Both the position numbers and the translations under genes were made by a program. Shown here in pieces: positions 5,895-30,737 of a DNA stretch of 31,377 nt (the stretch's first letter is position 1; each line of letters starts with the position of its first letter). The DNA comes from a virus: IMG/VR virus record IMGVR_UViG_3300021091_000265, positions 1 through 31,377 of that record; one strand, written 5' to 3'. A model generated the notes under the pieces. The model was not told where the DNA came from and ran no database searches. It saw nothing but the letters and a program-made list of their open reading frames with translations.

Positions 5895-5918
5895 CTACAA
5901 TCGGAACTATTCATATAG

Positions 5919-6864: not shown

Positions 6865-6915
6865 CTAATAATATTAAGCCCTTCACAAATAAATTCAATA
6901 AATTATTTTTCTATT
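6865..6915. promoter_or_regulatory. divergent promoter region, 51 bp
   Basis: This AT-rich spacer separates the minus-strand GT9 gene (start 6864) from the plus-strand fusion gene (start 6916), so both leftward and rightward promoters must lie here or within the gene ends. No exact TATTTAT is present in either direction; AATTTATT occurs twice on the minus strand. No Shine-Dalgarno sequence is visible for either gene. Confidence 0.45.
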
Positions 6916-10271: not shown

Positions 10272-12557
10272 TTATGAATATTGTGTTATTCTAATACCTC
10301 TAATATTAGAAACGTCCGCCGCACCGGTGGAAGATGTACAAAACTGAAAATAAAGAGTAGAGGAATTGTTTATTGTGAATGAAGTTATAGAAGTCTGTAC
10401 ACCATAATCACTACCAAATTGGGTTCCTGCATTAGAAATGGTTCCTGATGTCCCCACCTTATTTAAATCTCTGGCACATTTTACGATAGCATTCGTGGAT
10501 GAAACGTTAGCTCCTGTCGCGATTAGAGTAGACCCAGCTGTAGGATTGGAACCTAAAGTTCCGGAAGAAGTACTTAGATATACTGCAGACTGAATTGTTC
10601 CCCCTGAACCTGAAATTCTAACACTAATCCATAAAACTTCGATAATTGCATTTGTCGCAAAAGTATTTGCTGGTATAGTTATTTGGGTGGATATCTTAGG
10701 TGTAGTTGTTCCTGGACCAGTGATACTGGTTCCATTTGCAACACTGACGGAAACTGAAAGAGGATTGGGGGTTCCACTTGTTCCTGAACTACCTGATGTA
10801 CCACTAGTTCCATCAATTCCATCATTTCCATTTGATCCGTCCGTATTCCAAGTTATAGTAAACAAAGTTTTATCGAGTAAGCTCGTGTTACCTGCTAAAT
10901 ACGTAACAGTTAAGTCAAAATAAGTTCCCTGATCAGTAATGCCATCAATTTGAAAATATCCAAATTTACTATTATCATTAACTTCTATAATTTGTAAAAA
11001 TGCCGGTCTATTCTTGTTATTAATTTGGTCATCTAAAACTAACCACCACGCATATAAGTCGACACCAAACATATCGTCTTTACTAATTGAGAACGTTGTC
11101 ACACCACTAATAGTGTTAGTGTCGGCAACAAAATTACCTGATCCTGGATTTGCAGGTGCCGATCCAGTATTTCTATATGAGTATCTTGATGAATTTGCCC
11201 CATCCTTACCTGATATGCCGCTAGTACCACTTGTACCATTTGTACCATTCGTACCAGAAGTTCCATTAGTCCCACTTGTCCCATTAGTTCCCGAAGTACC
11301 GTTAGTTCCATTCGTACCTGATGTTCCATTAGTACCAGAAGTTCCATTGGTGCCACTTGTTCCATCGGTGCCACTTGTTCCATCGGTGCCACTTGTTCCA
11401 TCGGTACCAGAAGTTCCATTGGTGCCACTTGTTCCATCGGTGCCAGAAGTTCCATTGGTACCACTTGTTCCATCGGTTCCAGAAGTTCCATTGGTTCCAT
11501 TAGTTCCGTTAGTACCCGAAGTCCCGTTTGTTCCTGAGGTACCATTAGTTCCATTAGTTCCTGAAGTCCCGTTGGTTCCACTTGTGCCATTTGTCCCCGA
11601 CGTTCCATTAGTTCCATTAGTTCCATTAGTACCTGAAGTTCCATTGGTACCACTTGTACCACTTGTACCATTAGTTCCATTGGTTCCGCTAGTTCCGTTG
11701 GTTCCATTTGTCCCTGAAGTACCATTGGTACCATTTGTTCCACTTGTTCCATTAGTTCCCGACGTTCCATTTGTACCGTTCGTTCCCGATGTTCCATTAG
11801 TACCTGAAGAACCATTGGTTCCATTTGTACCCGAAGTGCCGTTTGTACCACTTGTTCCATTCGTACCGTTAGTCCCTGATGTTCCATTCGTACCGTTAGT
11901 CCCTGATGTTCCATCAGTGCCTGAAGTCCCATTTATACCTGAAGTTCCTGAAGTTCCGCTTGTACCCGATGTTCCACTCGATCCATTTGTGCCGTTAGTT
12001 CCGCTTGTGCCTGAAGTTCCGTTAGTTCCTGAAGTTCCGTTTGATCCTGAGGTTCCTGAAGAGCCAGATATTCCTGAAGAACCCGAAACACCACTTGATC
12101 CACTTGATCCACTTGATCCACTAGAACCGTTTGTACCATTAGTACCTGATGTACCATTTGTTCCGGAAGTTCCATTGACACCAGAGGTTCCATTTGTACC
12201 TGAAGATCCGTTAGTTCCTGAAGTTCCGTTTGACCCTGAGGTTCCTGAAGAGCCAGATATTCCTGAAGAACCCGAAGAACCGTTTGTCCCATTAGTACCC
12301 GATGAACCACTCGTTCCTGAAGCACCACTTGATCCCGATGCCCCACTTGTACCACTAGTTCCATTAGTACCGTTTGTTCCATTTGTTCCTGATGTTCCTG
12401 AGGTACCAACCGTTGCAATTAACGTGGCAACTTGAGACAAGGTTGCTTTGTAAGAAGACCCTGCAGGGTTTTGTGATGTATCCGTAGGATCCACAATATG
12501 TATTAAATCTTGTAATGTAACCCCGGTTGCTAATGTTCTATCGGTTAGAAATCCCAT
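10272..12557 (-). CDS. collagen-like repeat tail fibre
   Basis: A 761-aa fibre. Residues 1-50 form an attachment-like head containing DLIHIVDPTDTSQNPAGSSY. Residues 51-453 are an almost uninterrupted Gly-X-Y array of about 134 triplets, mostly GTS, GTN, GSS and GTD. A globular domain (about 455-570) with many aromatics follows, then a short second Gly-X-Y stretch (GNDGIDGTSGTSGSSGTSG) and a C-terminal beta-rich domain ending at 761. Such arrays are common in phage fibres and are expected to form trimeric collagen-like shafts with the C-terminal domain as trimeriser or receptor binder. Pro is nearly absent, so stability would come from Thr/Asn contacts or from Thr/Ser glycosylation; the latter is attractive given the sugar-transfer genes nearby. 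The start has a TATTTAT motif 14 bases upstream. Confidence 0.88.
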   Translation of the reverse strand: MGFLTDRTLATGVTLQDLIHIVDPTDTSQNPAGSSYKATLSQVATLIATVGTSGTSGTNGTNGTNGTSGTSGASGSSGASGTSGSSGTNGTNGSSGSSGISGSSGTSGSNGTSGTNGSSGTNGTSGVNGTSGTNGTSGTNGTNGSSGSSGSSGSSGVSGSSGISGSSGTSGSNGTSGTNGTSGTSGTNGTNGSSGTSGTSGTSGTSGINGTSGTDGTSGTNGTNGTSGTNGTNGTSGTNGTSGTNGTNGSSGTNGTSGTNGTNGTSGTNGTSGTNGTNGTSGTNGTNGTSGTNGTNGTSGTSGTNGTSGTNGTNGTNGTSGTNGTSGTNGTSGTNGTNGTSGTNGTSGTNGTNGTNGTSGTDGTSGTNGTSGTDGTSGTNGTSGTDGTSGTDGTSGTDGTSGTNGTSGTNGTSGTNGTNGTSGTNGTSGTNGTSGTNGTNGTSGTSGISGKDGANSSRYSYRNTGSAPANPGSGNFVADTNTISGVTTFSISKDDMFGVDLYAWWLVLDDQINNKNRPAFLQIIEVNDNSKFGYFQIDGITDQGTYFDLTVTYLAGNTSLLDKTLFTITWNTDGSNGNDGIDGTSGTSGSSGTSGTPNPLSVSVSVANGTSITGPGTTTPKISTQITIPANTFATNAIIEVLWISVRISGSGGTIQSAVYLSTSSGTLGSNPTAGSTLIATGANVSSTNAIVKCARDLNKVGTSGTISNAGTQFGSDYGVQTSITSFTINNSSTLYFQFCTSSTGAADVSNIRGIRITQYS
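11353..11406 (-). repeat. 18-bp tandem repeat, three copies
   Basis: Three consecutive copies of an 18-bp unit (CCACTTGTTCCATCGGTG on the plus strand), at 11353-11370, 11371-11388 and 11389-11406, the last with one mismatch at its final base. The unit encodes six residues of the Gly-Thr-Asp-Gly-Thr-Ser series. It is a likely slippage site for shaft length change. Confidence 0.85.
12021..12276 (-). repeat. 67-bp direct repeat in the fibre shaft
   Basis: Bases 12021-12087 recur at 12210-12276 with one mismatch (T to C within a GAT/GAC step). The offset is 189 bp (63 codons), in frame. This indicates a past segmental duplication of a shaft block. Confidence 0.85.
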
Positions 12558-12889: not shown

Positions 12890-15088
12890 TTAACTACAAG
12901 AAACACAAGAAATGTTATATTCTATTACTAAGTTTGAGATTATTTTTGTATCATTTAATAAATTATATGTTTCAAATCCACAATTTTTTTCAATTTCACT
13001 ACAATCATTTGTTATTGTAATTTTGTTATTTGTATAATCAATTAAAACTTCACCAATCCCAACAAAAGTTTCTAAAATATTTTTAAGGGCTAACCCCCAA
13101 TCTTGATCATTTGGAAAATCATTTAATCCGTTTGATATGTAAAATATATCTTGTTTTGTTTCGGTACCTACCGTGACTTGAACACTAAATTTTGCTTCAT
13201 TCACAATACAGTTTGTATCTCCAGATGTTAAATCATAAAATCCTTCATTAAACATTTGTTTAATTCCTCTTTTTCCGAGTATTTCTGAATTTGAAAAATT
13301 ACCTTCACAAACTTCATAAGTTGTATATGCGCCTAATATTTCAGTTCCTTTAAGTTTTGTGGACCTTGAAAAGGTACACCCATTTGAATCTATTACAGTA
13401 CAAGAATAGTTTCCTGATGTTAAACCTGTAATAACGAGTCCTGTCTGTAGTCCAACATTTCCAAACCAATTGAATGTGAACGGTGGTGTTCCACTTGTAA
13501 TTAATACATCTATTTCACCATCGTTTCCAAAAATAGGATTAAATATTACAAAATCAAAATATACACTACTTGATGGTGATATAAATATCGGTTTTTGTTG
13601 CACACAACCAGTTGCATCTGTGACGGATAAAATATAATTTCCTGATGGAAGATTGTTAAAATTTCCATTGAACTGAAAAGGTATATTTTGTGGTCCAGAT
13701 AATGAATAAACTACTGGATATGTTGCACCAGTCGATACAAAAATACTAAATCCACCATTTGATAAACCACAAGTTGTTCCCGTTGTTGTTGCCGAAATTA
13801 CAAATTTATCAACTGATGAAATACTTGTTGTTCCGGTATAAACACACCCTAAATTGTTATCAATAAATAAAGTGTATGAACCATTGCCTAATGATGCAAA
13901 TTGTTTGTATACACCACCAACTACGTTTGAGATGTATGTTCCATTTGCTCCAGATAGGGTAAACGTATAACTACCAGTACCAATTCCATTATTTATGTAA
14001 ACATCTAAAATACCATTATTTACATTACAATTTGAGTTTGTCGTTATTAGATCAATTGAAGCAAATGAATTTGGTGTCGATAGTGTGTATTGACCAACTA
14101 CCGTACATAATGCCGAATCTGTTACGGAAAATGAAAATAACCCAGCAGAAAGACCACTAAATGTATAATTAGTATCAAAAGTAACCAAAACATCATTATT
14201 TGACCCACTAAAATAATATGGTGCAGTACCATTATTTATTACAACACTTAACTCACCATCTGGTTGTAAACAAGTTGGTGGACGTGTTATAACACTTATT
14301 ATTTCTATTGGTAGTACTTCATCTATTTGTATGTAATCAACATTTGTACAACCTTCTTGATTTGTAATTTCAACGGGATAAAGTCCTTGTGTTAAACCAG
14401 TAACTGTTATACCAGTTTGTCCATTTACATCGGCTAACCAGTTTATTGTATATGCACTTGTTTGGTCTGTTAATCCTGTTATATAAATTTTACCGTTATT
14501 GATACCAGGTACACAACCAGCTGAATTTACTTTATAATAACCAAATGTAAAATTTGTGGAATCTTTAATAATACAAGATTCTGATGTACCAGAACAACCA
14601 CCAACATCATAAGCATCAACATAATATGAATCTGGTTGTAAATTATTAAAAATTATATAGTTTTGTAATGTTGATGTTGTACCACTATCAATATAGTTGT
14701 TTGCAATGTCATACAAATATATTTCAGTTCCATTAGCAAAAGTTTGTGTTGTTGCAGTTATTGATCCGTTATTTAGATTACAAGTTGTACCTTCACAATC
14801 GACTGAAACTGTAACCCCAGAAGATATTATAAAAGAAAAATATTTTATTGTTGGTGGTAAATCAGAATCTTCTATTGTTAAGTTATAATTACCGACTGGT
14901 AAATTATCAACATAATAATATGGATATGATGTTGTAACCGCTGTTGTTGGTAATAACCCACTAATTGTAGGACCTTCATACACAATCCAGTTCGGACTTC
15001 CCCCGACAATTTCTAATTGTAAAGCACCAGAAGATGTATTACTACAATCACCAGTTAATAATATAGATGGAAATGCTATAAAACTCAT
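12890..15088 (-). CDS. tail protein with about seven SprB-like repeats
   Basis: A 732-aa protein. From about residue 12 to 610 it is a chain of about seven Ig-like repeats of roughly 80-90 residues. Each has a Cys or Asn-Gly-containing start (for example CNLNNGSI, CNVNNGILDVYINNG), a central G-(T/S)-x-P-(Y/F) strand, and an end like LPSGNYILSVTDATGC. This is the SprB-repeat pattern of Bacteroidota adhesins. The last ~110 residues form a different domain that resembles the C-terminus of the 1001-aa protein encoded just upstream (see findings). ATG at 15088 overlaps the upstream stop by 4 bases (ATGA), implying translational coupling. Likely a long rod-like fibre attached to the baseplate through its C-terminal domain. 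Confidence 0.8.
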   Translation of the reverse strand: MSFIAFPSILLTGDCSNTSSGALQLEIVGGSPNWIVYEGPTISGLLPTTAVTTSYPYYYVDNLPVGNYNLTIEDSDLPPTIKYFSFIISSGVTVSVDCEGTTCNLNNGSITATTQTFANGTEIYLYDIANNYIDSGTTSTLQNYIIFNNLQPDSYYVDAYDVGGCSGTSESCIIKDSTNFTFGYYKVNSAGCVPGINNGKIYITGLTDQTSAYTINWLADVNGQTGITVTGLTQGLYPVEITNQEGCTNVDYIQIDEVLPIEIISVITRPPTCLQPDGELSVVINNGTAPYYFSGSNNDVLVTFDTNYTFSGLSAGLFSFSVTDSALCTVVGQYTLSTPNSFASIDLITTNSNCNVNNGILDVYINNGIGTGSYTFTLSGANGTYISNVVGGVYKQFASLGNGSYTLFIDNNLGCVYTGTTSISSVDKFVISATTTGTTCGLSNGGFSIFVSTGATYPVVYSLSGPQNIPFQFNGNFNNLPSGNYILSVTDATGCVQQKPIFISPSSSVYFDFVIFNPIFGNDGEIDVLITSGTPPFTFNWFGNVGLQTGLVITGLTSGNYSCTVIDSNGCTFSRSTKLKGTEILGAYTTYEVCEGNFSNSEILGKRGIKQMFNEGFYDLTSGDTNCIVNEAKFSVQVTVGTETKQDIFYISNGLNDFPNDQDWGLALKNILETFVGIGEVLIDYTNNKITITNDCSEIEKNCGFETYNLLNDTKIISNLVIEYNISCVSCS

Positions 15089-18000
15089 TGTTCAGTACAG
15101 AGTATTGTAAAGTTTATACCCAATTCAAGAGTAAAAGTATCGTTATCATCAAAAGGTGTACAATTAACATTATATATGTAGAGATTTTCGTCAACGTAAT
15201 CTATACTAAAATTATAACCATAATTTTCTATATCAGTTAAAACCGTTTCAAGACCATTTAGCCATTCTGAATTAGTTGGGTAATTTTGGTAACCATAAGT
15301 TTCACTAAATAAATTAGTTGAAAGTGTGGTACCATTTAGTTTTGTATTAACATACCACTGAACATAAAGTGTGTTAAGTTGACATTGATTAAGACTTGAA
15401 ATTCCTTGACTTGTTAAATAATTATTTAATGCTACTGTTAAAATTACACCAAATTTACCACCGATTGGACTATATGTCCAAGGATATAAACCACATCTTA
15501 AAAATTGTGTAGGACAATCATATGCGAATAACTGTGTAACTAATGAACAAGGTTTACAAGGTATTGGAACAATCTTACATCCAAATTGTCTTCTCCATAC
15601 AAATTTTTGTCTATGGTATATTGAATTTTCTAATCTAACCCCGGTATTCCATATTGTTGTTGCCGGAATCATTTGCTCAACCAATCTTATCCAATAATCA
15701 CCAATACCATTGATATAATCCAACATTGTTTGGTAATTAAAATTATCATTTTTGATTCCGGCTAATTTTTGTGATTCCAAATATTTCCAATATATTGATG
15801 ATAGTGTTGGATAGCCACCAGTCTTACCATCTGTAATAAATTGTCTATTTCTAACATTAATCATATTTCGCCAAAAAGTTTGTGCAAATTCAAAAAATGT
15901 TTTTTCTTTTGGTTTTGGTATTATTTCTGTCCAATCTATACCACCCCTTTTTGGGTAAGGTGTGTTTGGATTCGGATTACAATGAGTTGGTTGGACATAA
16001 TTTAATCCTTGATTTGGTATTGGGAAATTATATTGTCTTGACATACTCCATACATCATAAGCCAATCCAAAACTTGGGTTAAGCATTACGTCAACATTTT
16101 TTACATTCAAAACAAGACATTCATCTGATGTGTAGTAATATGCGTTAAAATTTCCATCAGAACTTTTTCTTAAATCACTTTCATTATCATACCAACTTTT
16201 TTTATTATCAATAACCCTTCTTAATCTAAAACCTAAATCCATAAATGGAAATTTTCTATATCTTTCCAAATATTCTTCACCATAACTGAATGGTAAAAGT
16301 TTTGTTTGGTAATTTGGGTTCGAACCAGTAAATACTGATGTTGTTGAATCTATTTGTTCTGGCATTCTGTGTTGAGGTGTTGATTCAAACCAACCCCCAC
16401 CAATTTGGAAATAGTAATTTTCACTATCAACTGGTGTACTTGGGCAACCAAAACTATCAATTGGGTAATCTTCCCTTGTTAAAGAAATGTCTATTGTTTT
16501 GTTAGACGTTGTCACGCCGGTATATTGAACACCCATTATGGAATAGACATCTGTTGGGTCTAAAACTGGTATTGATTCGGTATAAGTTCCAGTTGCAACA
16601 ATTCTGAATTTAGTGTCAAAATCATTTATATTAATTCTTTGGTCAGCAATGTAAATATATTCATTAAAATCAACTAAAAAATCTGGTGCACCAACAAGTC
16701 TTAAAAGTATTTCAATAGACTTTCTGGTCCCTTTTGATTTAAAAAGAAATGCCGAATTCAATATTAAATTTCTAAAATATTGATAATTAATTTCATCTGG
16801 TGTTTTACCTATTGGGACACCGCTAAAACTACTCTCGCTTGTACTAAACACTGAATTTAAAAAATCTTCTTCTGTGATTGGTGACATATTTGTTTTCCAA
16901 CCAAGGGTTTGGGCTAAATTTTTTAATAATTGTGAAGGAATATCATTTTTAACATTATATCTTACTGAATTTATAGTCGATAGAGCATCAATAAATGTTT
17001 TTGTTTCATCAAAGCTCCTTCCATATATTTGTAAAACTTTTTCAACTTTTTTATCCACAGTATCAAATTCTTTTAATGATGCGGTAGTAAAAAATCGAGA
17101 TATTAAATTTGTTTTATATGAATCTAAACTTGTTGCAAAACTATTTAATTCTGATAAATAATTTTCAAATGAACCTGTAACTAAATCTAAATTCCAAACT
17201 CCATTTTTTGGAAATCGTAAAGCTTTATAACTAAAAGTAAAAGACCCATCATCATTTTCTATTGGTACTGAAAAATAAGAAGTATAAATTGGTGTAACAT
17301 TTCGATTTAACAAAAAGTTTTCAACCGAATCAAAATTTTCATTAAAAACTTTATTAACATAAAAATCACTCGGTCTAACAATTATATTGTCATAGGATAC
17401 CGAATTTCCAGAAAATGGATCACCTTCAACATATATTGTTAAAACCTGATTGGTATTTGTTATAGGTACAATTTCGTTAATTGGATAGTGTTTTTTATTT
17501 ACAATAACAACATATTTCGAATAATTAGTTTTAAGATTTCTAAGGTTTGACACAGATAATTCACTTGCTTGAAAGTTTTTTTCAGCGTTATTTGTGAAAT
17601 CAATACCAAACGGATTATTTATGTTTTCTAATTCAAGCTCTAATTTTGTTTCGTTTTCAACAGAATTATATATGATATTTATAGCCGTTGCTCCAGTTAA
17701 GTAATTTATTCTTGGGTTTGTAACTTCAAGTGCTGCTGGAAAGAAATTAATAATCTTTTTTATTGACGCAGAAAATCTTAGAACCAATGAACCATAAAGT
17801 GTGAAATTTGTAACTTGTGATAAATCGTAGTTTGGGTAAACTTGAAAATTATTTGCGATAATCATTTTCGATTCTTCCACATTTGATAAATTCATAGTAT
17901 CGAGGGAAATTGGGTCCGAAAATGTACCTATTTCAAAATTTCTATCTTGTTTTTCGGTTATATTAGTAGTAAAAGCAAAATTTGCTTGAGTTAGACCACC

Positions 18001-18090
18001 CCCATCAACAAGTTGTAACCCAACTAAATTGTCAGAAAAGGACCCTTGAGCGGATGCTTGTGGTGGACAAGTAAATTTGTTAATTGGCAT
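15085..18090 (-). CDS. large baseplate/fibre-attachment protein (possible tail-protein-I-like segment)
   Basis: A 1001-aa protein. An N-terminal beta-rich part (1-300) is followed by a helical segment (about 310-475) with YGRSFDETKTFIDAL and FLFKSKGTRKSIEILLRLVG; the KGTR turn (Gly454) and following helix recall the phage P2 gpI-type tail protein family, which links the baseplate to fibres. A middle part (about 480-880) is rich in Tyr, Trp and Arg, including a conserved-looking RLVEQMIPATTIWNTG segment, and ends with a Cys cluster (GCKIVPIPCKPC). The C-terminal ~110 residues resemble those of the 732-aa protein. The start shares one base with the preceding stop (18090). Placement after the baseplate genes supports a baseplate-periphery role; the gpI comparison is tentative. 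Confidence 0.7.
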   Translation of the reverse strand: MPINKFTCPPQASAQGSFSDNLVGLQLVDGGGLTQANFAFTTNITEKQDRNFEIGTFSDPISLDTMNLSNVEESKMIIANNFQVYPNYDLSQVTNFTLYGSLVLRFSASIKKIINFFPAALEVTNPRINYLTGATAINIIYNSVENETKLELELENINNPFGIDFTNNAEKNFQASELSVSNLRNLKTNYSKYVVIVNKKHYPINEIVPITNTNQVLTIYVEGDPFSGNSVSYDNIIVRPSDFYVNKVFNENFDSVENFLLNRNVTPIYTSYFSVPIENDDGSFTFSYKALRFPKNGVWNLDLVTGSFENYLSELNSFATSLDSYKTNLISRFFTTASLKEFDTVDKKVEKVLQIYGRSFDETKTFIDALSTINSVRYNVKNDIPSQLLKNLAQTLGWKTNMSPITEEDFLNSVFSTSESSFSGVPIGKTPDEINYQYFRNLILNSAFLFKSKGTRKSIEILLRLVGAPDFLVDFNEYIYIADQRININDFDTKFRIVATGTYTESIPVLDPTDVYSIMGVQYTGVTTSNKTIDISLTREDYPIDSFGCPSTPVDSENYYFQIGGGWFESTPQHRMPEQIDSTTSVFTGSNPNYQTKLLPFSYGEEYLERYRKFPFMDLGFRLRRVIDNKKSWYDNESDLRKSSDGNFNAYYYTSDECLVLNVKNVDVMLNPSFGLAYDVWSMSRQYNFPIPNQGLNYVQPTHCNPNPNTPYPKRGGIDWTEIIPKPKEKTFFEFAQTFWRNMINVRNRQFITDGKTGGYPTLSSIYWKYLESQKLAGIKNDNFNYQTMLDYINGIGDYWIRLVEQMIPATTIWNTGVRLENSIYHRQKFVWRRQFGCKIVPIPCKPCSLVTQLFAYDCPTQFLRCGLYPWTYSPIGGKFGVILTVALNNYLTSQGISSLNQCQLNTLYVQWYVNTKLNGTTLSTNLFSETYGYQNYPTNSEWLNGLETVLTDIENYGYNFSIDYVDENLYIYNVNCTPFDDNDTFTLELGINFTILCTEQ

Positions 18091-20215: not shown

Positions 20216-21031
20216 TTAAGGGTTTAAATATTCATACCAGTTTATTGAAGAAACGTCAGTCCCTACTCTACCACTACTTAGAACATCAAAAACTTCATAT
20301 GATTTTGATTGGTAATCCAAAATTACTTTATAGTAAAAATAATTAGCTTTATTAAAAGTATAATAGTTATTTGATGCTGAAAATATTGATTGTGGTCTAT
20401 TCATCATATTAACAAAAACACCAAACCTTGCATTAAAAAATTTTGCAGACATATAAAATTCATTTATGTTGATGTAAAAATTTTCTCTTAACCAATAGAT
20501 AAAAAATCCTTCTTTATCACCCACAAAATCTAGTCCCATTTTTGGTTTTCTTATCTCCACATTTTGTAAAAATGTTGATATTGTTACCGTTTCAAAGTCA
20601 CCTTGTTGTACTGGTAATATTATTGAAAAATAATTTTTTTGACTTGATTCATTTGTTGTGTCATAGAAATCTAGTTTGAAAAATGATTTGGTAAAAGGTT
20701 TTGAAAAATAATAAACGTCTTGCATTGTAAAATTTTCAAATAAATAACTATTTTTCCAAGAACTTGGGTTATTAATTGTTGAACCAGTATCAAAAAAATA
20801 AAATTCGTAATTTATTTTTGTTAATAAATCATCATTTTTACTCACATAATTGTTATGTGAAAATCTTGAAAGTTCAAAGTCATTTGGTAAACCAATTAAT
20901 TCATCTAAAACCTCACCTTGATAAGTATCAATAGCTTGGTCACGTTCAGAAAAATCCCATTTAACTTCTATTGGTAAATTTATTTGTCTACCAATTGCTG
21001 ATTTAACAATTTTGTATTTATTCACACTCAT
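20216..21031 (-). CDS. phage structural protein of unknown function
   Basis: A 271-aa protein beginning MSVNKYKIVKSAIGRQINLP. It is strikingly rich in Phe, Tyr and Asn (for example FFIYWLRENFYININEFYM), consistent with a beta-rich virion protein. There is no catalytic motif, signal peptide or clear transmembrane helix. Its start overlaps the end of the 583-aa gene by 14 bases and its stop is one base before the 390-aa start, so it is tightly embedded in the baseplate operon. Not recognised beyond that context. Confidence 0.7.
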   Translation of the reverse strand: MSVNKYKIVKSAIGRQINLPIEVKWDFSERDQAIDTYQGEVLDELIGLPNDFELSRFSHNNYVSKNDDLLTKINYEFYFFDTGSTINNPSSWKNSYLFENFTMQDVYYFSKPFTKSFFKLDFYDTTNESSQKNYFSIILPVQQGDFETVTISTFLQNVEIRKPKMGLDFVGDKEGFFIYWLRENFYININEFYMSAKFFNARFGVFVNMMNRPQSIFSASNNYYTFNKANYFYYKVILDYQSKSYEVFDVLSSGRVGTDVSSINWYEYLNP

Positions 21032-22769
21032 CTATTGTTGGTTGTTGTATTTGATTTATGTCTGGTTGTCCAATTCCTTCATAAAAAAGTCTAAATATAT
21101 TTGTACTAAATGGGTAATGTTTTCCATTTGTAAAAGGATATTCAACGCCTAATCCAGATGAATCAACATATCCATATGGATATATATCTCTCCATCTAAA
21201 TCCATTTGAACTATTAGAATAAAAAGCCCAGTCTGGAATACCTGTAACAACATTCGAATCTCCTTCTTCAACATATTCAGAAAAAACTCTTATTATTACT
21301 GGATTATGTGGATAATAATAATATCCCAACTGATTATTTTGTGAAAATTGATTGTACTGAGTAAACCAAGTTTGATTAAACGTGAACTTATGTACTTTTC
21401 TTGACACAACTCTTTCTTCTTGTGTAAAATCATTCCATTCACAAAAATCACCTTCAATTATATCACCACTTTTCAGTTCGCCATTATATAAAAAAGGTCC
21501 ACTACCTATAGTAGATGTATATGTTATTGATGATATGTTTGTATTTGATAAACCATTATTATTATCCCAAAAAACAGATGGTTGATTATTTTGTAATGGT
21601 GTGTTAAATTCAAATCCTTCCCTAAGTTTATTTGTCCAACCCCAATATCCTTTCCATATTGTTGTAAAAAATAATTCGGTTATTGGTCGATTTTGATTAT
21701 CTTTAAGTTGTCCAATATTTATATCTCTATTAAATGATAATGTGTAACATTGTGAACCTTCAATAATTGATGTTCTTGGACAAGTTGATGGTGTTAAAAT
21801 TTGTAAAGGTGTACCACCAGACAATACTTTTTCATATTGTCTTTTTAAATTAAAAATATTTTGTTCAAAACCTGATTTTGTTAAAACAACATCATCAACG
21901 TCAGTCAAAATTTTATTGACTTTTACATAGTATTTTGATGTCGTTTCTCCTGAATTAACTGGGTCCAAAACTCTTTTTATATTACCAGAATTTCCAACAT
22001 CAAAATTTGTTGTTAAATATCCAACATCAAAAATATTAAAAATATAATCTTCACTACCAGCACCACCATCACCTAAAGAATCAACTTCAAATAGATTTGT
22101 TCCATTATAAAAAAATGGTAGTTGGACATATTCATTTACATTTAATCCGTGTTTAACTGGACATTTAAAAGATATTATATTGTTAGCTCTAGATGTTATT
22201 AAATAAGGTATTCCTTCTTGTGCTTGAAAAGACCAAATTGTTAAAGTTTCTGGGTCATGTACATAAAGTTGTTTTGTAAAATTATTTGAATATGCGTATG
22301 ACATATAATGTGTCCAATTATATGTTGTTGCACTTTTACTTACAAATAATTGATGGTTGTTTGGTCCAGATGTGTAGCCAACATTATTATTATCGGTTCT
22401 GATAAAATCAAATTCATTATATTGTGGATAACCAAACCAAGTAACAGCACTAAAATTTGTACACGCAACTTGTTCTGCGTTTTCTGTAATATTAGAATAA
22501 GCTAAATAGTCAACATATGGTTTGTAGTTTGTTCCACCTAAATATTCATTTTTAATCACTAATGTGTATTTTGCTGATGGTCTAAATATGTTTGAATTTT
22601 CTCTTTCATTAACAAATGTTTCTTCAAGATTGACATCAATATACCTTTCATATTCAACAAATTCATGTGATGATTGTTCCAAAGAAATTTTTTGTTGTCC
22701 ATCTAAAGTTGGGGCACCTTGAAACCTCTTATTACTTAATATTATATTTGTTGTGCTATCGACTGGCAT
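21018..22769 (-). CDS. phage structural protein of unknown function
   Basis: A 583-aa protein beginning MPVDSTTNIILSNKRFQGAP, with many Tyr, Trp, Asn and Phe and no enzymatic signature. The composition (aromatic and Asn-rich, few Cys) matches neighbouring baseplate proteins. The C-terminal third includes GYYYYPHNPVIIRVFSEYVE and a Tyr/Gly-rich part typical of beta structures. It starts 2 bases after the stop of the 1863-aa gene and overlaps the next gene by 14 bases. Likely a wedge or peripheral baseplate subunit; the T4 counterpart, if any, cannot be told from sequence by eye. Confidence 0.7.
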   Translation of the reverse strand: MPVDSTTNIILSNKRFQGAPTLDGQQKISLEQSSHEFVEYERYIDVNLEETFVNERENSNIFRPSAKYTLVIKNEYLGGTNYKPYVDYLAYSNITENAEQVACTNFSAVTWFGYPQYNEFDFIRTDNNNVGYTSGPNNHQLFVSKSATTYNWTHYMSYAYSNNFTKQLYVHDPETLTIWSFQAQEGIPYLITSRANNIISFKCPVKHGLNVNEYVQLPFFYNGTNLFEVDSLGDGGAGSEDYIFNIFDVGYLTTNFDVGNSGNIKRVLDPVNSGETTSKYYVKVNKILTDVDDVVLTKSGFEQNIFNLKRQYEKVLSGGTPLQILTPSTCPRTSIIEGSQCYTLSFNRDINIGQLKDNQNRPITELFFTTIWKGYWGWTNKLREGFEFNTPLQNNQPSVFWDNNNGLSNTNISSITYTSTIGSGPFLYNGELKSGDIIEGDFCEWNDFTQEERVVSRKVHKFTFNQTWFTQYNQFSQNNQLGYYYYPHNPVIIRVFSEYVEEGDSNVVTGIPDWAFYSNSSNGFRWRDIYPYGYVDSSGLGVEYPFTNGKHYPFSTNIFRLFYEGIGQPDINQIQQPTIDECE

Positions 22770-22771
22770 TA

Positions 22772-25700
22772 TTATTCTGTGTTAACATAAAGTTTAATAA
22801 ATTTGTCAACAGCTGTATTACCATTTATTAGTCCAAAATAAAAATGATAAGGAGCACCAACAATTATACTTTGATTTGGTAATCCGTTTACAACGTCAGT
22901 TGGTAATATTTGTGGGTCATCGTTTAAGTCAAAATTTGTTATAAACCCAAAATTTTCAAAAGGGTTTGATTTTCTGAAATATGGGTCGGTATTGAAGTCT
23001 AAATCTTGATAGTGTTTACTAAAAAATCCTCCTGTTTGTAATACATCAGTGTCCCAATTATTGTTTTCAGTACCAAAAATACTATTTGTCGGACCAGTAA
23101 TTGTCCATCTATAGTGTGGTACAACTTGGTCTGATGAATACCCATAAAAATTGAACACACCACCACATTTATTACTCAAAATTTCAATTCCTGGTGAAAG
23201 TTTCTTTCTATATCTATAATCTTCAGTGGAAGATGAAAAGAAAATACCAAATACTGGTCTTTGGTCTTGTGTTGCGTCTTCACCAATATATAAGAAATTG
23301 TTTGGGTAATTTTCTTCAATGTAAGGTGTTACTTTCCATTCTGAATTAATTGATAGTACTTGCGCAAAATCACCATCAATTCTTTCACCCTGTCTATTAC
23401 TGTTAAAAAATTGAATAATCCCTTTACCTTCCGAGCTTGCACCACTTGGATTTCCAATTGGTAAAATTTGATCCCAAACAGAAGCATTAAGTAGTCTTGA
23501 AATAAAACCCATTTGTATTAAATCGGAATTATCTTGGTAAGACGTTGATTTAATCTGGTCTGCTAAATAAACATTTAAATTAGAATCATTACACACTTGA
23601 CTTATAAATTTATTTCTAGGTCCTAAATCCATAATTGTTGTTGGGAATTGAATTCTTTTTGTGTTATAACCTAAACCAGGATAGTTATATACAAGGTTTG
23701 AAGGCCAATAATCGTTTGTAGGTGGTGAGTTAACACCTATGAATTTATAACCATCCCAGGGTGATGATCTGTAATAAAAACCTTTAGTTAATTCATTATA
23801 AATTATTGTATCTTTACAATATTTGTAAATAGGTTCATCAGGTTTTGTTAAACTGTATTGTGTTGATTTATTGAATGAAAACATATATAAAACACCATTA
23901 ACCCAATTATTTTGGAATGTTTGTGAAAACACTCCACGACAAATCGCGAGTGTTAATGTGAATCTTGTTTTCCATTCTAATAGTAATCTTGCGTCAGCGG
24001 GGAATTCAGAAATATAAGGTGGATTTAATAAACAATAACAACCTCTGATCAATCTATCAGCTGGAATATCACAATTTGGGTCAATACCGACATTTGTTCC
24101 ACTTCCTGAGTAACACTCTAAAGGTTTCATATCTTCACAACCTAGTGTTGACGTTAGTCCTTGAACAAATTCAGTTTCATCGTAAACTGTTTGTCCGGCA
24201 GATGGGTCTGGTGCGATACCAAAATTAGGTGAACCACCACTATCTGATTTATAACATTGTAAATTAGTGTTTTGATGTAAACCATAACTTGTTTCACCAA
24301 AATTTTCTTGTACACTAGTTGATGTTGGTATTCTATCACTTCTCATTACAAGGTACTGTGGTTGTCCAGGTGTTTGGTCAACAACAAAATTTACTGGTGT
24401 TGGGTTGTATTTGTAATATGCTGGTGAATAAACTGCATACTTTGTAAGTCCATTTGAGTATTGGTCATCATCACCGATAAATGCTTGGGACATATCTGTA
24501 TAGACTGGGCCAGCGGATGAATTAGAGGCAATAAAAGAACCTCCGGCAAAATAATAATTAGTTGTAGACTTTAATGGTGTTGTAACAAATGGTGTGTATA
24601 TTGTATTATTCACTGTTGGCAATAATAAAGCTCTTTTACTATTATTATTAAACACAGTATGTTGTGATAGTGATAATGTTACAATATTATCAAAACCAAA
24701 TGAAGGTGGTGCTGGTGAGTAGTTTGCTGCAATACTTTCATCAGGACATAAATAATAATAAGGTAGTGTTGATGTAAATCCAGAAAATTCATTACAAGTT
24801 ACACCACTAACAACGTATGTTTCACTTATTTTAAAATTATATGGTTCAAAATATAAATTGTTAGATGGTAAATCATTTTGTGTTATTAAGTGTGATATTG
24901 GCTTAACACCAACATTTTGACCCTTTATTGGTATATTTAAAAAATATTCACCATCAACAATTGGTCCTAATCCAAAGTTTTTACCAAATATCCTTGATAA
25001 ATCGTAACGATTATATTGTTTTGGTGAATGTGGGTCAACACCTCTTGTTATAATTAAAATTTCAAAATTACCATATTGTGGTATTTCTTCAATAATTTTT
25101 AGATAATTTTCATATTGATAAGACCCAAGTGGTGGATTGTTCAATATATCACATTTATTTCTATAAACAAAAGTACTATCGTGTTGTAAATATTTATTTG
25201 GGAAATCTTGGGGGTTTGTAAAGTCAGCCAAAGATATAAATTGTGAATAGGTATAACCAGATATTATCTGAAAATATTCTAAATCAATATTATACTTTAA
25301 ATATGTTTCTGTTTGACCGGTATTACTTAGTGTATATTGAACCTCTGAATTTGAATTATGAGACTGAGCGTATCGTACTGTAACGATAGTTGATCCTGTC
25401 ACACTTGTACCTGTTACAGCATTATTACCAAATTGATTTTCTGAAAAATTAACCCCATTGTGAAAACTTGTACCAGTTAAATTTTGATTACATAATGATA
25501 ATTTTCCTTCTTGGAAGGTGAATAAATTTCCAACACCTATTTGTCCTAGTGTTCCTCGTTTTGCTAAAACAATTAAAACTTGATCTTGATGTTTTGTATT
25601 ATTTTGTGGTTTGTTAAATGTTACTTCAATTTTATTTACATTGTCAAAATATTTTTGTCTTAAATTAAATTCATTAAGTTTTTGAGATAATGTTTCGGTA

Positions 25701-28363
25701 AAAGGTTTTGCAAAAAATCTATGATTTATAAAATTTTTTTTCTGTGCTGAAAATAAAAAATGATTTGGTGCATGCAAAAAATAATTTCCTGGTATTCCAT
25801 AATAATCATCATTTGAATCCAAAGATTCGCTACCACTAAACAATCTTTGAAATCCTAGTGTAGCAGATGTTAATACATTATCTTCAATCCACCCTTCTTG
25901 TATTGCATAACTTAATGATTTATAACCACAAGCAACAGGTTCAAATATAGACAAAGGAGGCATACAAGAGGGGGTTGTTATACAATAATAAGGACCTAAA
26001 ATTGCTGAACTCAAGTCTGGTTGAGTTACATTAGGGTGAGTTAGTTTTGTATAATTTAAAGGTAAATTTATAGGTGCTAAAAAACTATTATCCGTGATAG
26101 CAGTTGTGGGAATTCCGAGTGGTAAGTCCTCAACAGAAATTTGAGATTGTGCATTTAATATTTCTTGATTAATTGATGATTCACTAATATTATTTGCTTC
26201 AGAAAAATCGGCTGGACCACATTCACAATCACATGTTGTACAATCTGGATACGATAACATTGGTAAACCGAGTCTTGGGAAATTATCAATATTGATTAAG
26301 TATTTTAATGTGAGACCAATCAATGCTAATCCTGCTGCAATCATAAATACCATTTTTAAAAATTGTTTTCCGATTTGTATAATTGTTGAAATTGAGATTA
26401 TTGGTCCGGCAAAATTTGCATCACCTAATGATCCGATATAGTAATATAAGTCAACTCCAGCGTCAACACCAAGATATGTTACATATATCCCTAAGAAAAT
26501 TAGAAGGATTTTTAATATTGGCCAAATAAAAGATATTAAATGTGCTATAAATAATAATGGAACAAAAACAAGTGGTGTTAAAATAGACATAAATAAATTA
26601 AATATAAAAAATAAAAAATCAAAATTTCTTATAGCATCATTTACTGGAAATGTGTTTGTTGTTGATTTACAAGTTCTGTTATCAATTTCTTTAATACCAA
26701 GATGTCTTGCTCGGCCAAGACCTTTTTTATATCGATCAAGGAACATAGCAGTTGTATACACTTTATTATAATGAAATTCATAAAAAGTGTCTTCACAATT
26801 TAAGGCCGCTTCTGGGTCTGCATAGTCATCCCAGTCTAAACTAAATGAATATGATTTGAATAAATTCAAATATTCTTTATTATAAAACTTATATATTATA
26901 GTTGCGGGTTGGTTTGGATCTTCTGGAACCAAAGTTATATTTACAAAATCATTTGGTGTTTCTGTTGATATTACTTGTGTATCACCATAATATGTCGTCC
27001 AAGGTCCACCTGAATTTGGCCCTATTTCAACAGAATAACTTGATAAATTAACCGAATCATCAAAAACTAATCCACTATCACCAAGAGGACCAAAAATAAG
27101 AGTATTCTGACCTCCTTGTGTTGTTCCAGATAAAGTTTGTACTATACCAGTTTTCAGTGGGTCACTATTATAAGTTGAAGCAGTCCACCCATGTTCTTTA
27201 ATGTTTGGAACAAAATAATTTGCTCTAAGAACTTCATTTTGTAAACCGCCTTCATTTTCCCACTTGAACTTGAATCTGTATCTTGCTTTTGTTGGAATCC
27301 CAACTTTTGGGTCGTTTGATAGTGATTGTTCGCCAAATTCATTTGTAAATACATAATCCAAATTCATTGGTAGATTTACAAGGTATGAACCATCACCATC
27401 GATAATTTTGCCACCATTTGGTAATTTGAATTCTTCTAAAATTGGAAGTCCATTAACATCAACATTTATTGTCTGTCTTATTGATAATATTTGTCCTGGA
27501 CCTGCAATTAACTCACAAAGATTTCCAGTATTGTTTTTTGGTTTACAACTTACTCTTAATGAATCATCATCAGTTGTTGATATAATTGAACCCATAAATA
27601 CGGCTTTGGGTTCAATATTAATGTTAGCTTCAGATTTTAAATCAAAGTCAACTCTTGTTATCCCTAATTGACAAACATCGGTATCACCCCAAAGTGGTGA
27701 AATATCAACAATTTTATTCAATGTTTTTATTTGTGGTAGTTCGTTCAAATTTGTTGAGGATTTGAATGTGTTTCCATTGACTTGATTTTCTGTTGCAATT
27801 CCACTCTCAATTAAGTCGTGTGGTGTTAGTGAAAAACAACCCATATCAGATAAATCAGCATCCAAGAAGACAGTTTGAGCTCCTAGTGGAACACCAAATA
27901 TCATATAATCCCCACTTTCGTTGGTTCTTGTTGTGTATTTATAGTACTTGTCGTAAACTTCAATATAAGATTGGTCTAATAGGGTTTCTTCTTTTGTTGG
28001 GAAGTTCCCTGTTGCCGCATGGCCTTCATATGAAGGTATCTTAGGTAATAAATTATACCTATAACCATCTTCATTGATATCTGATAGACTTCGATATGGA
28101 TATAATTCACTTATTATCGGATTATTTTCATCTTCTGGTTGTAATGGTATAAAGATAGAAATCATTGCATTTGGTAAACCAAATCCAGAATTTACAAAAA
28201 CACGACCAACTATAACACCATAGTCAGAACATTGTCTACTATAAACATCACTTTGTAAAATTTTTAATGAAAGTATATTAATCTGGTCAAAATCTTGGTC
28301 CAAATTAACTTTTATTGATTTGTCAACCCCAACCTGGGTTCTTACTCTATATGATTTAGGCAT
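22772..28363 (-). CDS. giant baseplate-region protein with Ig-like N-terminus and membrane-like helix bundle
   Basis: An 1863-aa protein directly downstream of the gp6-like wedge gene, in the slot that T4 fills with gp7 (which is shorter). Residues ~49-175 look like a carboxypeptidase-regulatory/transthyretin-like fold (GVIVGRVFVNSGFGLPNAMI, later TNESGDYMIFGVPLGAQTVF). Residues ~581-692 contain three or four strongly hydrophobic helices (for example FLFFIFNLFMSILTPLVFVP, then MVFMIAAGLALIGLTLKYLI). These are immediately followed by a Cys cluster C708-x2-C711-x-C713-x-C715. The remaining ~1100 residues are beta-rich and aromatic. Hydrophobic bundles are unusual for baseplate proteins and could insert into the host membrane during infection (inference). 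A 74-base gap with a TATTTAT motif precedes the ATG. Confidence 0.78.
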   Translation of the reverse strand: MPKSYRVRTQVGVDKSIKVNLDQDFDQINILSLKILQSDVYSRQCSDYGVIVGRVFVNSGFGLPNAMISIFIPLQPEDENNPIISELYPYRSLSDINEDGYRYNLLPKIPSYEGHAATGNFPTKEETLLDQSYIEVYDKYYKYTTRTNESGDYMIFGVPLGAQTVFLDADLSDMGCFSLTPHDLIESGIATENQVNGNTFKSSTNLNELPQIKTLNKIVDISPLWGDTDVCQLGITRVDFDLKSEANINIEPKAVFMGSIISTTDDDSLRVSCKPKNNTGNLCELIAGPGQILSIRQTINVDVNGLPILEEFKLPNGGKIIDGDGSYLVNLPMNLDYVFTNEFGEQSLSNDPKVGIPTKARYRFKFKWENEGGLQNEVLRANYFVPNIKEHGWTASTYNSDPLKTGIVQTLSGTTQGGQNTLIFGPLGDSGLVFDDSVNLSSYSVEIGPNSGGPWTTYYGDTQVISTETPNDFVNITLVPEDPNQPATIIYKFYNKEYLNLFKSYSFSLDWDDYADPEAALNCEDTFYEFHYNKVYTTAMFLDRYKKGLGRARHLGIKEIDNRTCKSTTNTFPVNDAIRNFDFLFFIFNLFMSILTPLVFVPLLFIAHLISFIWPILKILLIFLGIYVTYLGVDAGVDLYYYIGSLGDANFAGPIISISTIIQIGKQFLKMVFMIAAGLALIGLTLKYLINIDNFPRLGLPMLSYPDCTTCDCECGPADFSEANNISESSINQEILNAQSQISVEDLPLGIPTTAITDNSFLAPINLPLNYTKLTHPNVTQPDLSSAILGPYYCITTPSCMPPLSIFEPVACGYKSLSYAIQEGWIEDNVLTSATLGFQRLFSGSESLDSNDDYYGIPGNYFLHAPNHFLFSAQKKNFINHRFFAKPFTETLSQKLNEFNLRQKYFDNVNKIEVTFNKPQNNTKHQDQVLIVLAKRGTLGQIGVGNLFTFQEGKLSLCNQNLTGTSFHNGVNFSENQFGNNAVTGTSVTGSTIVTVRYAQSHNSNSEVQYTLSNTGQTETYLKYNIDLEYFQIISGYTYSQFISLADFTNPQDFPNKYLQHDSTFVYRNKCDILNNPPLGSYQYENYLKIIEEIPQYGNFEILIITRGVDPHSPKQYNRYDLSRIFGKNFGLGPIVDGEYFLNIPIKGQNVGVKPISHLITQNDLPSNNLYFEPYNFKISETYVVSGVTCNEFSGFTSTLPYYYLCPDESIAANYSPAPPSFGFDNIVTLSLSQHTVFNNNSKRALLLPTVNNTIYTPFVTTPLKSTTNYYFAGGSFIASNSSAGPVYTDMSQAFIGDDDQYSNGLTKYAVYSPAYYKYNPTPVNFVVDQTPGQPQYLVMRSDRIPTSTSVQENFGETSYGLHQNTNLQCYKSDSGGSPNFGIAPDPSAGQTVYDETEFVQGLTSTLGCEDMKPLECYSGSGTNVGIDPNCDIPADRLIRGCYCLLNPPYISEFPADARLLLEWKTRFTLTLAICRGVFSQTFQNNWVNGVLYMFSFNKSTQYSLTKPDEPIYKYCKDTIIYNELTKGFYYRSSPWDGYKFIGVNSPPTNDYWPSNLVYNYPGLGYNTKRIQFPTTIMDLGPRNKFISQVCNDSNLNVYLADQIKSTSYQDNSDLIQMGFISRLLNASVWDQILPIGNPSGASSEGKGIIQFFNSNRQGERIDGDFAQVLSINSEWKVTPYIEENYPNNFLYIGEDATQDQRPVFGIFFSSSTEDYRYRKKLSPGIEILSNKCGGVFNFYGYSSDQVVPHYRWTITGPTNSIFGTENNNWDTDVLQTGGFFSKHYQDLDFNTDPYFRKSNPFENFGFITNFDLNDDPQILPTDVVNGLPNQSIIVGAPYHFYFGLINGNTAVDKFIKLYVNTE
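26288..26623 (-). other. hydrophobic helix bundle within the 1863-aa protein
   Basis: This segment encodes residues 581-692. Long runs of Phe, Leu, Ile and Val are broken by Pro at 597, 602 and 615 and by a short polar turn (about 632-652). Three to four membrane-spanning helices are plausible. The T-run-rich codons stand out on the coding strand. Confidence 0.75.
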
Positions 28364-28437: not shown

Positions 28438-30276
28438 TCAAGAAAAGTTAACCCCCTTAAAGTTAAGAACTCTTACGTTAATATCTTTGTTTGGGAATCT
28501 AATTTGATACATTTGTGTTGGTTCAGCAAATATAGTATCAGCAATTAATTCTATTTGTCTTGTCTCTGGGTCGATATATCTTTGTGATGTCTGTGATGAC
28601 GAATATTGTCCACCAACTTTGTTAAAAAACTGAATGTCTGAAATACTAATAACACCATCCAAATTTTGAATTCTTTTTCTTATTTCTGAAACATAAACAT
28701 TTTCACCCATCTGTCTATTTCCAGGTGAAAAATATTGTGTTATTATATCAATAACTTGTGTAACGATGGTACCCTGGTTTTGACTAGCATCTAATACAAC
28801 GTCAACATTACAACTTAAATCTATTACATTTGCACTCTCAACAGAAATATAATCATTTATCATTCTATAATTTGATAGGTAATTTGCAATATTTTGTTTA
28901 AGTGTGTTTGATGTTATTTCTGTCAATTTACCATCACTATCATAAGATAATAATTTAATTTTAATTTTATTATTTTCTTCTGTAATTGTAACTTTCGCTG
29001 GTGCCCCAAATTGTGAAGGCATTGTTCTTATTATTGATTCGTAGTCGTTAATTGTTACAGCTCTATTTTGTGCAGAAAAATTAAATGAAACCATTTGTCT
29101 TACTTCTTCAGTTGTTGGGTTGTTTGCACCACCAATTGCTGCTGTTACATTATTACATCTTAGTGAATTGATAACACTACGATTAACATTATCAGATGGA
29201 CCGTTAACTGCAAAATTTACACTACCAATTTGATTTATAACGTTTATACCTAAATTTGATGAACTACCACCCCCAATTCTATATTGAATAAACATTGTTG
29301 TGTTTGGTTTTAACGCACTACCCAATGTTAGGTTGTTTGTATATTTTGAAAGGTCAAAAGATAGTCCATCTCTTGCAAATTCTCTTACTTGGTCTTCAGC
29401 TGAAGTATTACCACCACCAAAAGTCATTTTAAAGAAACCTTCTGGGGTATATTCAGTTATAAACTTATCAGTCGTTGTTACGTATTTTCCTACTTTAATT
29501 CCTGGACTATCTGAAGTCTTTGTTGGGTCTTCGATGAATACTCTATCATCCATTAAAGCTTTGACTTCATACCATCTATTGTTTTGACCCAAAAACTCTT
29601 GTGTTGGTGGGATTGTAACGTATTGTGTTCCTTCTTTAATTAAAACACTTGTTATTCCTAATACATTTTTTTCTGGTAAAAAAAGTTCAAAGAAAGGTCT
29701 TACATCGTTTGGTGTTATCACTCTTTTGAATACTTTTGTAACACCATTTACAACAACTTCACGTTTTATGATTGTATAATTTATAATCTTACCATTAGAA
29801 TCAAAATTTGGGATTTTTAGCCTATTTGGTGAACCTTCTGCGTTTACTGCCGATGAAAAATCAATATCATAAACCGTTTCAAATGGTTGTCCACCTCCTA
29901 GTACTTGTGAACCTCGTCTTAATATACCACAATAACTAAGATTTTCTTTATCACCAAAAGCAGGTACCGTTATTGAGAAATCGACTAAGGCAACTGATGG
30001 TCTTTGTCCTGGTACTTTTAAACCATATGTTCTTGCGATATTGAAAACCGATGACCTTTGTTGTGCATATTGAAGTACCGTTTCTTGGATACTTCTATCA
30101 ATGTGGAATTGTAGGTTATCTGTTACAGCAGCATTTAAATCTAAAAATACAGAAAAAATTCCAGCGTCATTAAAATTTTGTACAAGGTCGGGATAATATT
30201 GTCTTGTAAAATTTATTAATTCAGTTCTAATTCCCTGAAAATCTCTTGTTGTGTATGATATTTTCTTTTCCGCCAT
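28438..30276 (-). CDS. baseplate wedge protein, gp6/baseplate-J-like
   Basis: A 612-aa protein, close in length to T4 gp6 (about 660 aa). The N-terminus (ISYTTRDFQGIRTELINFTR) and the helical block LDLNAAVTDNLQFHIDRSIQ (46-65) are typical of gp6-like wedge proteins of T4-type and cyanophage myoviruses. The baseplate-J-type core is visible at 382-424, with GGANNPTTEEVRQMV followed by NRAVTINDYESIIR. gp6 dimers form the ring of the baseplate wedge that holds the hub and triggers sheath contraction. ATG at 30276 overlaps the gp25 stop (TAATG), so the two are probably coupled in translation. The identification is strong from motif order and gene order. Confidence 0.9.
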   Translation of the reverse strand: MAEKKISYTTRDFQGIRTELINFTRQYYPDLVQNFNDAGIFSVFLDLNAAVTDNLQFHIDRSIQETVLQYAQQRSSVFNIARTYGLKVPGQRPSVALVDFSITVPAFGDKENLSYCGILRRGSQVLGGGQPFETVYDIDFSSAVNAEGSPNRLKIPNFDSNGKIINYTIIKREVVVNGVTKVFKRVITPNDVRPFFELFLPEKNVLGITSVLIKEGTQYVTIPPTQEFLGQNNRWYEVKALMDDRVFIEDPTKTSDSPGIKVGKYVTTTDKFITEYTPEGFFKMTFGGGNTSAEDQVREFARDGLSFDLSKYTNNLTLGSALKPNTTMFIQYRIGGGSSSNLGINVINQIGSVNFAVNGPSDNVNRSVINSLRCNNVTAAIGGANNPTTEEVRQMVSFNFSAQNRAVTINDYESIIRTMPSQFGAPAKVTITEENNKIKIKLLSYDSDGKLTEITSNTLKQNIANYLSNYRMINDYISVESANVIDLSCNVDVVLDASQNQGTIVTQVIDIITQYFSPGNRQMGENVYVSEIRKRIQNLDGVISISDIQFFNKVGGQYSSSQTSQRYIDPETRQIELIADTIFAEPTQMYQIRFPNKDINVRVLNFKGVNFS

Positions 30277-30737
30277 TATATATTAAGTATTACAAAATCA
30301 TTAGATTCAAATGCAGTGTTAGTCACTTTATAATCAATTCTAACTCTTGCTGTATATTCTTTTTGTGATAAACCAGGGACACGATATTCTCTTTGTCCTT
30401 CTGAATTTATGTATGTAGCACCAGGATCTTCTAAATCTGCAGTCGCTTCTTTAATTTCAATATTTGTCACTAAAACTCCTGGCATATATCTACCAACACT
30501 TTCTCTAATTTCAGATTCAATATCAGAAAATGTTGGCCCATCTAATGGTTCAAAAATAAATTCATATAGTCTTGTTCCAAAATCTGGTAAAAAATATCTG
30601 GTACCCTTTCTAGTTAATAAAAGATGAATTAAATTACTTCTTATTTCGTCGTCAGCAGTTTGTGTAACACCAAGATACTTACCAAGTGATGATTGTTCAA
30701 AAGGAAAAGCTAAACCATATGTTGTTCCGTATGCCAT
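30276..30737 (-). CDS. baseplate wedge protein, gp25-like
   Basis: A 153-aa protein of the gp25/lysozyme-like baseplate family (no lysozyme activity is implied). The signature is LLLTRKGTRYFLPDFGTRLYEF at about residues 39-60, with the basic R-x-G-x-R and the P-D-F-G turn, followed by FEPLDGPTFSDIESEIRESV. T4 gp25 is of similar size (about 130 aa) and sits in the wedge core with gp6 and gp53, nucleating the sheath. The gene immediately precedes gp6, as is usual. ATG at 30737 has TATTTAT 5 bases and again 31 bases upstream. Confidence 0.92.
   Translation of the reverse strand: MAYGTTYGLAFPFEQSSLGKYLGVTQTADDEIRSNLIHLLLTRKGTRYFLPDFGTRLYEFIFEPLDGPTFSDIESEIRESVGRYMPGVLVTNIEIKEATADLEDPGATYINSEGQREYRVPGLSQKEYTARVRIDYKVTNTAFESNDFVILNI

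Follow-up and report, generated by a model that had tools for sequence, protein, structure and literature searches.

The window analysed here, a complete virus record of IMG/VR (IMGVR_UViG_3300021091_000265; 31,377 bases), encodes on its minus strand a giant protein of 1863 amino acids (aa), P0001 (22772..28363), which we take to be structural and to belong to the baseplate region of T4-type phages. Residues 581-692 of this protein (26288..26623) constitute a strongly hydrophobic segment that is flanked by invariant Cys residues in the near relatives, that recurs at the same place in nearly all members of a wider superfamily and that behaves as a separable module. We tentatively read the segment, at somewhat short of probable, as a helical hairpin that inserts into a membrane and has a Cys collar; it would enter a host membrane at infection and there provide an anchor for the tail or an extension of the DNA conduit.

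Conservation and modularity of the hydrophobic segment

The Kyte-Doolittle hydropathy (19-residue window) reaches 2.35 at residue 583 (within 581-640) and 2.19 at residue 668 (within 664-692), and remains at or below 1.6 in the rest of P0001. The hydropathy maximum of P0001 alone is marginal versus shuffles (p 0.05); the 86 strongly hydrophobic residues within the 112 positions were reached in none of 2000 shuffles, and the segment that the original prediction had described from the DNA is therefore real. A count based on the octanol scale was dropped as non-discriminating, many segments being called outside the bundle. The segment is followed by a CxxCxCxC cluster (C708, C711, C713 and C715; 26219..26242), which had been read correctly, and four Cys within eight residues are found in 0.2% of the shuffles of P0001. 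Another Cys, C565 (26669..26671), is located on the N-terminal side. The interval originally given for bundle and cluster together, 26240-26623, covers residues 581-708 but leaves the other three Cys outside, at 26219-26233. Similarly, the 'three to four helices' hold as a count of hydrophobic stretches (three is the commonest number per bundle among 70 relatives, with a range of 1-4), whereas AlphaFold2 draws two long helices, 583-647 (26423..26617) and 658-689 (26297..26392), at a predicted local distance difference test (pLDDT) of around 60-80. The underlying model of residues 1-765, built with 70 sequences, is a one-copy monomer fragment of middling confidence (mean pLDDT 69, predicted template modelling score 0.53).

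The near relatives were obtained in two scans of viral contigs, of which the second gave at least 564 confirmed stretches. As the patterns for the second scan were derived from the N-terminal region only, there was no selection for the hydrophobic part. From the matches listed, 145 near relatives were taken, including 97 distinct full-length proteins, and 70 representatives were used for the column counts. All 97 show the sequence N-D-x-x-R-N-F-D, the hydrophobic segment and P-M-x-x-Y-P-D-C-x-x-C-x-C (or close variants), in that order, so that the originally suggested comparison with homologues shows bundle and Cys to be conserved and the Cys can be said to belong with the segment. Within the representatives C565, C708, C711 and C713 are invariant (70/70), as is H608, while W614, P615 and K618 are each present in 68 and C715 in 62; another 15 Cys are nearly or fully invariant. 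The resulting total of around 19 such Cys is unusual for a virion protein that is assembled in the cytoplasm. A second conserved set of Cys spans residues 1409-1591 (23591..24139) and includes C1444 (24032-24034). C715 and C1444 are absent from exactly the same eight representatives, which belong to two separate clades. This co-loss hints at pairing, possibly by a disulphide or a shared metal site that would connect the collar to the C-terminal part, but it is suggestive only, since two independent changes do not allow a test of significance. In 67 of the 70 representatives there is no hydrophobic segment outside the bundle. The bundle itself has shrunk at least three times (in L139 together with L102, in L121 and in L054), and each time the first hydrophobic run and the CxxCxC were kept while the rest was lost; in L139, L121 and L054 the retained part comprises the first ~33 residues of the long helix. 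A gp6-type gene lies upstream in all 145 near loci, in 126 of them within 0.3 kilobases (kb).

Four distant relatives recovered from bacterial assemblies seeded two further productive viral scans; no match came from an initial genome scan with P0001 or from the viral scan seeded by the short relative L169. These later scans were keyed on parts of the protein other than the hydrophobic stretch, and 73 representatives were used for counts across the superfamily. In 69 of them one hydrophobic stretch of 19-74 residues occupies an equivalent position, which immediately follows the N-terminal domain that all share and an N-x-x-P-x-N-type motif. The N-terminal region, residues 1-403 of P0001 (27155..28363), is common to the whole superfamily (hmmsearch versus L167-L170, E 5e-55 to 5e-133); gp6 is found directly upstream in 62 of the 73, and CxxCxC is restricted to a minority. 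The stretch is lacking in L167, L169, L173 and the partial L170. In L167 (747 aa) the N-terminal domain passes directly into the motif of P0001 residues 1481-1520, the hairpin, the Cys cluster and the middle domain all being absent, and L168 does have the hairpin, without CxxCxC or a match to the middle domain. The motif FQNNWxNGVLYMFSF (1481-1499; 23867..23923) is common to L167 and L168, and the C-terminal motif YxFYFGLxNGxTAxDKF (1839-1858; 22790..22849) is common to P0001 and L168. Both L167 and L169 adjoin a homologue of the 583-aa protein that is encoded downstream of P0001 (E 5.8e-39 and 6.3e-19) and thus sit in the same kind of operon. Given that the short orthologues L167, L169 and L173 lack both the segment and the middle domain, the segment can be considered an added module, and given that they manage without it, it is not required to build the wedge. 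Homologues that had lost the bundle and nothing else were not among these, as all three are also devoid of the 600-residue middle domain. On sequence comparison, then, the putative hairpin is nearly universal in the superfamily and dispensable for the core protein.

Apart from the helices, the structure models point to a beta-rich protein. Residues 47-250 (27614..28225; pLDDT mostly 60-87) are modelled as a transthyretin-like/carboxypeptidase-regulatory-like beta sandwich, with VIA-align Z values of 10.2 (over 79 residues, root mean square deviation 2.1) and 10.0 versus chains of carboxypeptidases N and D, next to a weak Pfam CarboxypepD_reg match. Apart from this domain, the first half gave only generic beta-sandwich matches in the PDB fold search; a match to a Vip3 helix (Z 7.6) was rejected, being within chance for long helices. 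The model of residues 755-1863 (pLDDT 72) contains a confident middle domain, 755-1370 (24254..26101; pLDDT mostly 80-97), which is the part missing from short relatives, and is of low confidence beyond ~1375. For this second half no Foldseek match below E 0.8 and no VIA match at Z of 2 or higher was found in the PDB, which does not establish a new fold. With the model of residues 1-765, a fold search of BFVD gave one clear homologue, the uncharacterised protein A0A8S5LA66 of Myoviridae sp. ctPuP5, a public uncultured phage, with 43% identity to P0001 over 392 alignment columns (Foldseek E 9.6e-37).

The family is invisible to annotation, because there is no Pfam or PHROG entry for it and P0001 has no sequence match in Pfam, PHROGs or the 50,697 GenBank phage records of INPHARED. 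An alignment of 21 members gave nothing above threshold versus Pfam, PHROGs and PDB sequences, the best match being CarboxypepD_reg (E 0.041, in 3 of the 21), and INPHARED yielded no match for four distant relatives either. Three further records, Flavobacterium phage immuto, Microcystis phage Mel-JY01 and LR756508, were reached through the gp6-like neighbour but rejected: their neighbouring proteins of 1265-1400 aa showed no hydrophobic segment, no CxxCxC and no match to the P0001 profile.

Lipid or protein as the partner of the segment

The pattern of variation within the segment argues for contact with lipid. Variable columns of the bundle are 72% hydrophobic, versus 34% for variable columns elsewhere in the protein, where they are polar. 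The clearest case is the second helix, which varies strongly (mean entropy ~2.2 bits) and is nevertheless 79% A/I/L/M/F/V/W/C/G, as expected for lipid-facing residues. Neighbouring baseplate proteins almost never carry such a segment. In two relatives the other large tail proteins (599, 1697-1699 and 2189-2233 aa) were free of hydrophobic segments, and since P0001 is therefore the only large tail protein there to have them, it would be the natural candidate for the conduit. Charges in the near family point in the same direction: within flank limits that were of our own choice, the N-terminal flank is +1 and the loop has a net charge of 0 or less in all 70 representatives, and the C-terminal flank is positive in 66. 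This is the predicted charge pattern of a hairpin with both ends on one side.

Other tail systems offer precedents for membrane-active segments. In pb2 of phage T5, a hydrophobic stretch of 46 residues, compatible with two helices, has been suggested to become a channel by inserting into the host membrane (PMC10038345). Like this virion tail protein, the P0001 family has a conserved hydrophobic stretch that is long enough for two membrane helices; unlike P0001, which is predicted to be beta-rich, is encoded next to gp6 in a myophage and has a Cys collar, pb2 is a coiled-coil tape measure protein within the tube of a siphophage. We considered whether P0001 might itself be a tape measure protein, thus long and mostly coiled-coil, and rejected this as the models are beta-rich with a confident globular middle domain. 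Tail-like machines can also be anchored in membranes via the baseplate or its fibres (PMC8894136; PMC11566945), and in the thylakoid-anchored contractile injection system a transmembrane helix of Cis13 is needed for anchoring (PMC8894136). Cis13 and Cis12 resemble P0001 in being tail-fibre and baseplate parts that contact or cross a membrane, but Cis13 forms a trimeric fibre whose helix is C-terminal, and in Cis12 there is only a putative amphipathic helix.

Several observations weigh against entry into a host membrane. The main basis for it is hydropathy, and the charge pattern is that of insertion from the cytoplasm, which fits docking during assembly better than entry from outside. The pattern moreover fades in the wider superfamily, where the C-terminal flank is positive in 48 of 69 and the N-terminal flank in 23 of 69. 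Conserved N, H and K occur in the first helix, which, if it is one continuous helix, exceeds the length that a bilayer can accommodate. Finally, gp7 of T4 carries a similar, shorter segment, which seems to be buried in soluble form, and has been solved as a component of baseplate structures, so that the original statement that such a bundle is unexpected in a wedge protein needs qualification.

The comparison with gp7 is also what lends weight to the strongest alternative, in which helices of adjacent copies of P0001, or of P0001 and gp6, would be bundled within the baseplate without lipid, with the Cys binding a structural metal. The gp7 gene directly follows that of gp6, as P0001 follows the gp6/J-type gene (28438-30276, then 22772-28363) in the position of a wedge subunit of the T4 gp7/P2 gpI/TssG type, and gp7 has one hydrophobic segment of 25 residues (Kyte-Doolittle 2.07), FVHPVGFGFIAITLLTMFINVGLTL, which is annotated as 'predicted integral membrane domain' and is conserved in eight T4-like phages, although gp7 is 1032 aa long and the segment is close to its C-terminus. 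This membrane-like segment (residues 882-906 in NC_000866; RFVHPVGFGF...FINxGL), while noted in the record, is unexplained in the literature found. Furthermore, in the wedges of T4 and of the type VI secretion system two copies of gp6 and one of gp7 form a three-helix bundle, (gp6)2-gp7 (PMC6300606), and in a continuous first helix of P0001 the conserved residues D582, N589, N593 and H608 would lie on one face, though the signal is weak (p 0.03) and the helical periodicity of the long helix as a whole is weak as well, with p 0.01-0.04 in some windows and not in others. On the other hand, the 86 strongly hydrophobic residues of the P0001 segment compare to 29 in gp7, and the variable second helix differs from the conserved helix of gp7 (0.55 bits, in a small sample of eight sequences). 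The existence of orthologues in the same operon that are wholly without the segment also speaks against a bundling role, and so does the lack of sequence kinship to gp7: in hhalign the P0001-family alignments A2 and A3 gave a probability below 0.5% versus both gp7 alone and an eight-member gp7 profile. We also looked for a trifurcation-type C-terminal domain or a helix like that of the (gp6)2-gp7 bundle; the C-terminal part of P0001 is of low confidence past ~1375, and no fold match was listed. The true gp7 of the operon may rather be the 1001-aa protein (15085..18090), which on the basis of a motif is a likelier candidate than P0001: it has a KGTxxxIexLLRL stretch that resembles KGIEASYKFLFKLLY of gp7, and its best local hhalign match to gp7 is at DFYSTKGIEASYKFLFKLLY (687-764), far below significance. 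Taken together, we regard a soluble core as doubtful, yet as a serious competitor of the membrane-entering hairpin.

In another alternative, the hairpin would be inserted from the cytoplasm into the infected cell's inner membrane, where it would dock the baseplate during assembly, to be released or cut off later. Since the charge pattern of the near family, in which the flanks are positive and the loop is acidic or neutral, suits insertion from the cytoplasm, and considering the precedent of the membrane-anchored injection systems (PMC8894136; PMC11566945), we do assign this scenario some likelihood. We nevertheless judge it unlikely, because the pattern is weak in the wider superfamily and the phage must leave the membrane at lysis, while neither a cleavage site nor a release step came to light, though no systematic search was made. 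It is very improbable that the segment serves to bind chaperones or to assist the folding of so large a protein. Such a role has been suggested for tape measure proteins, and in that of TP901-1 the hydrophobic regions may recruit chaperones rather than insert into the membrane (PMC5099701); in P0001, however, the invariant Cys at both ends and the (near-)invariant H608, W614-P615 and K618 indicate a defined structure.

Gene neighbourhood, phage type and host

The minus-strand genes are ordered gp25-type, gp6/J-type and P0001, followed by genes for proteins of 583, 271, 390, 302 and 1001 aa and by fibre-like genes. The assignment of P0001 to the baseplate region, as originally proposed, is supported by the first two, the gp25-type protein (30276..30737; Pfam GPW_gp25, 3.8e-12) and the gp6/J-type wedge protein (28438..30276; Pfam Baseplate_J, 1.6e-6; PHROG 219, 1.9e-25). 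The 583-aa protein (21018..22769) is conserved downstream of P0001. Long relatives of the window contig encode a T4-type portal (PF07230, 1.6e-75 and 7.6e-67), a terminase, a gp23 major capsid protein (PF07068, 2.5e-74), a gp19-type tail tube and a baseplate hub protein. The contigs bearing P0001 are thus those of T4-type myophages, mostly large ones; related contigs are up to 296 kb long among the near relatives and up to 412 kb across the wider superfamily. The latter includes contigs of 360-412 kb (L251-L330, e.g. 361 to 412 kb), which come close to the published size of Jug gut phages (PMC12363816), a likeness in size alone.

The host is probably a member of the Bacteroidota. The GC (guanine and cytosine) content of the window is 31%, and a clear Shine-Dalgarno site was not found before any of the 15 minus-strand genes and the one plus-strand gene that were checked, both of which resemble phages of Bacteroidota; in addition, two of the four relatives detected in bacterial assemblies are in Bacteroidota bins.

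Elsewhere in the window a protein of 761 aa (10272-12557) consists mostly of collagen-like G-T/S-S/N-G repeats (GTSGTNG) and is likely a fibre; an open frame of 473 aa on the opposite strand (11014-12435) appears to be an artefact of this repeat. Amid the tail genes, 4351-9834 encodes glycosyltransferase-like proteins of 326, 312 and 972 aa, the last on the opposite strand. The relatives L156 (381-12491) and L158 (6045-18029) have two very large tail-region proteins of ~1700 and ~2200 aa; a stretch of the first weakly resembles OmpA (E 0.0097), and the second has a weak match to a tail fibre.

A possible role at infection

On the basis of the above, the membrane-entering hairpin could have arisen and act as follows. 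An ancestral protein, made up of the N-terminal domain and the C-terminal motifs, would have had a bilayer-entering helical hairpin between them, and in the P0001 clade this hairpin would have come to contain up to four hydrophobic stretches, with the large middle domain after it. The foot of the hairpin would be held by the Cys collar, C565 with C708/C711/C713, which is probably a metal site or a set of disulphides, judging from the invariance of these residues alone. If P0001 is part of the virion, the hairpin would be shielded there and enter a host membrane after attachment and contraction, and several copies round the tail axis may fix the tail on the membrane, or create or enlarge the DNA passage, in a manner modelled on the 46-residue stretch of T5 pb2. 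A bolder version, which we think quite unlikely, is that the family carries its own channel, for which several hairpins, with a Cys collar bound by metal or disulphides as their clamp, would be freed on contraction and together form a DNA pore in the inner membrane. After contraction of the T4 tail the inner membrane bulges towards the tail, and a part of the tape measure protein in forming the conduit is no more than presumed (PMC9022992). If true, the hairpins of P0001 would form the pore that in T4 is usually attributed to this tape measure protein.

It is already known that tail proteins can have membrane-active segments and that baseplates can contact membranes. What is added here is a giant, gp6-adjacent family with a conserved, putatively hairpin-forming hydrophobic segment and Cys collar, which was found neither in Pfam, PHROGs, PDB sequences and INPHARED nor in a limited literature search. 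The family is large, as hundreds more members in the wider superfamily come on top of the confirmed stretches from the single scan. Considering the fact that the passage of DNA across the inner membrane is unsolved for contractile phages, a hydrophobic module that is both conserved and separable, within a baseplate-region protein, provides a concrete candidate.

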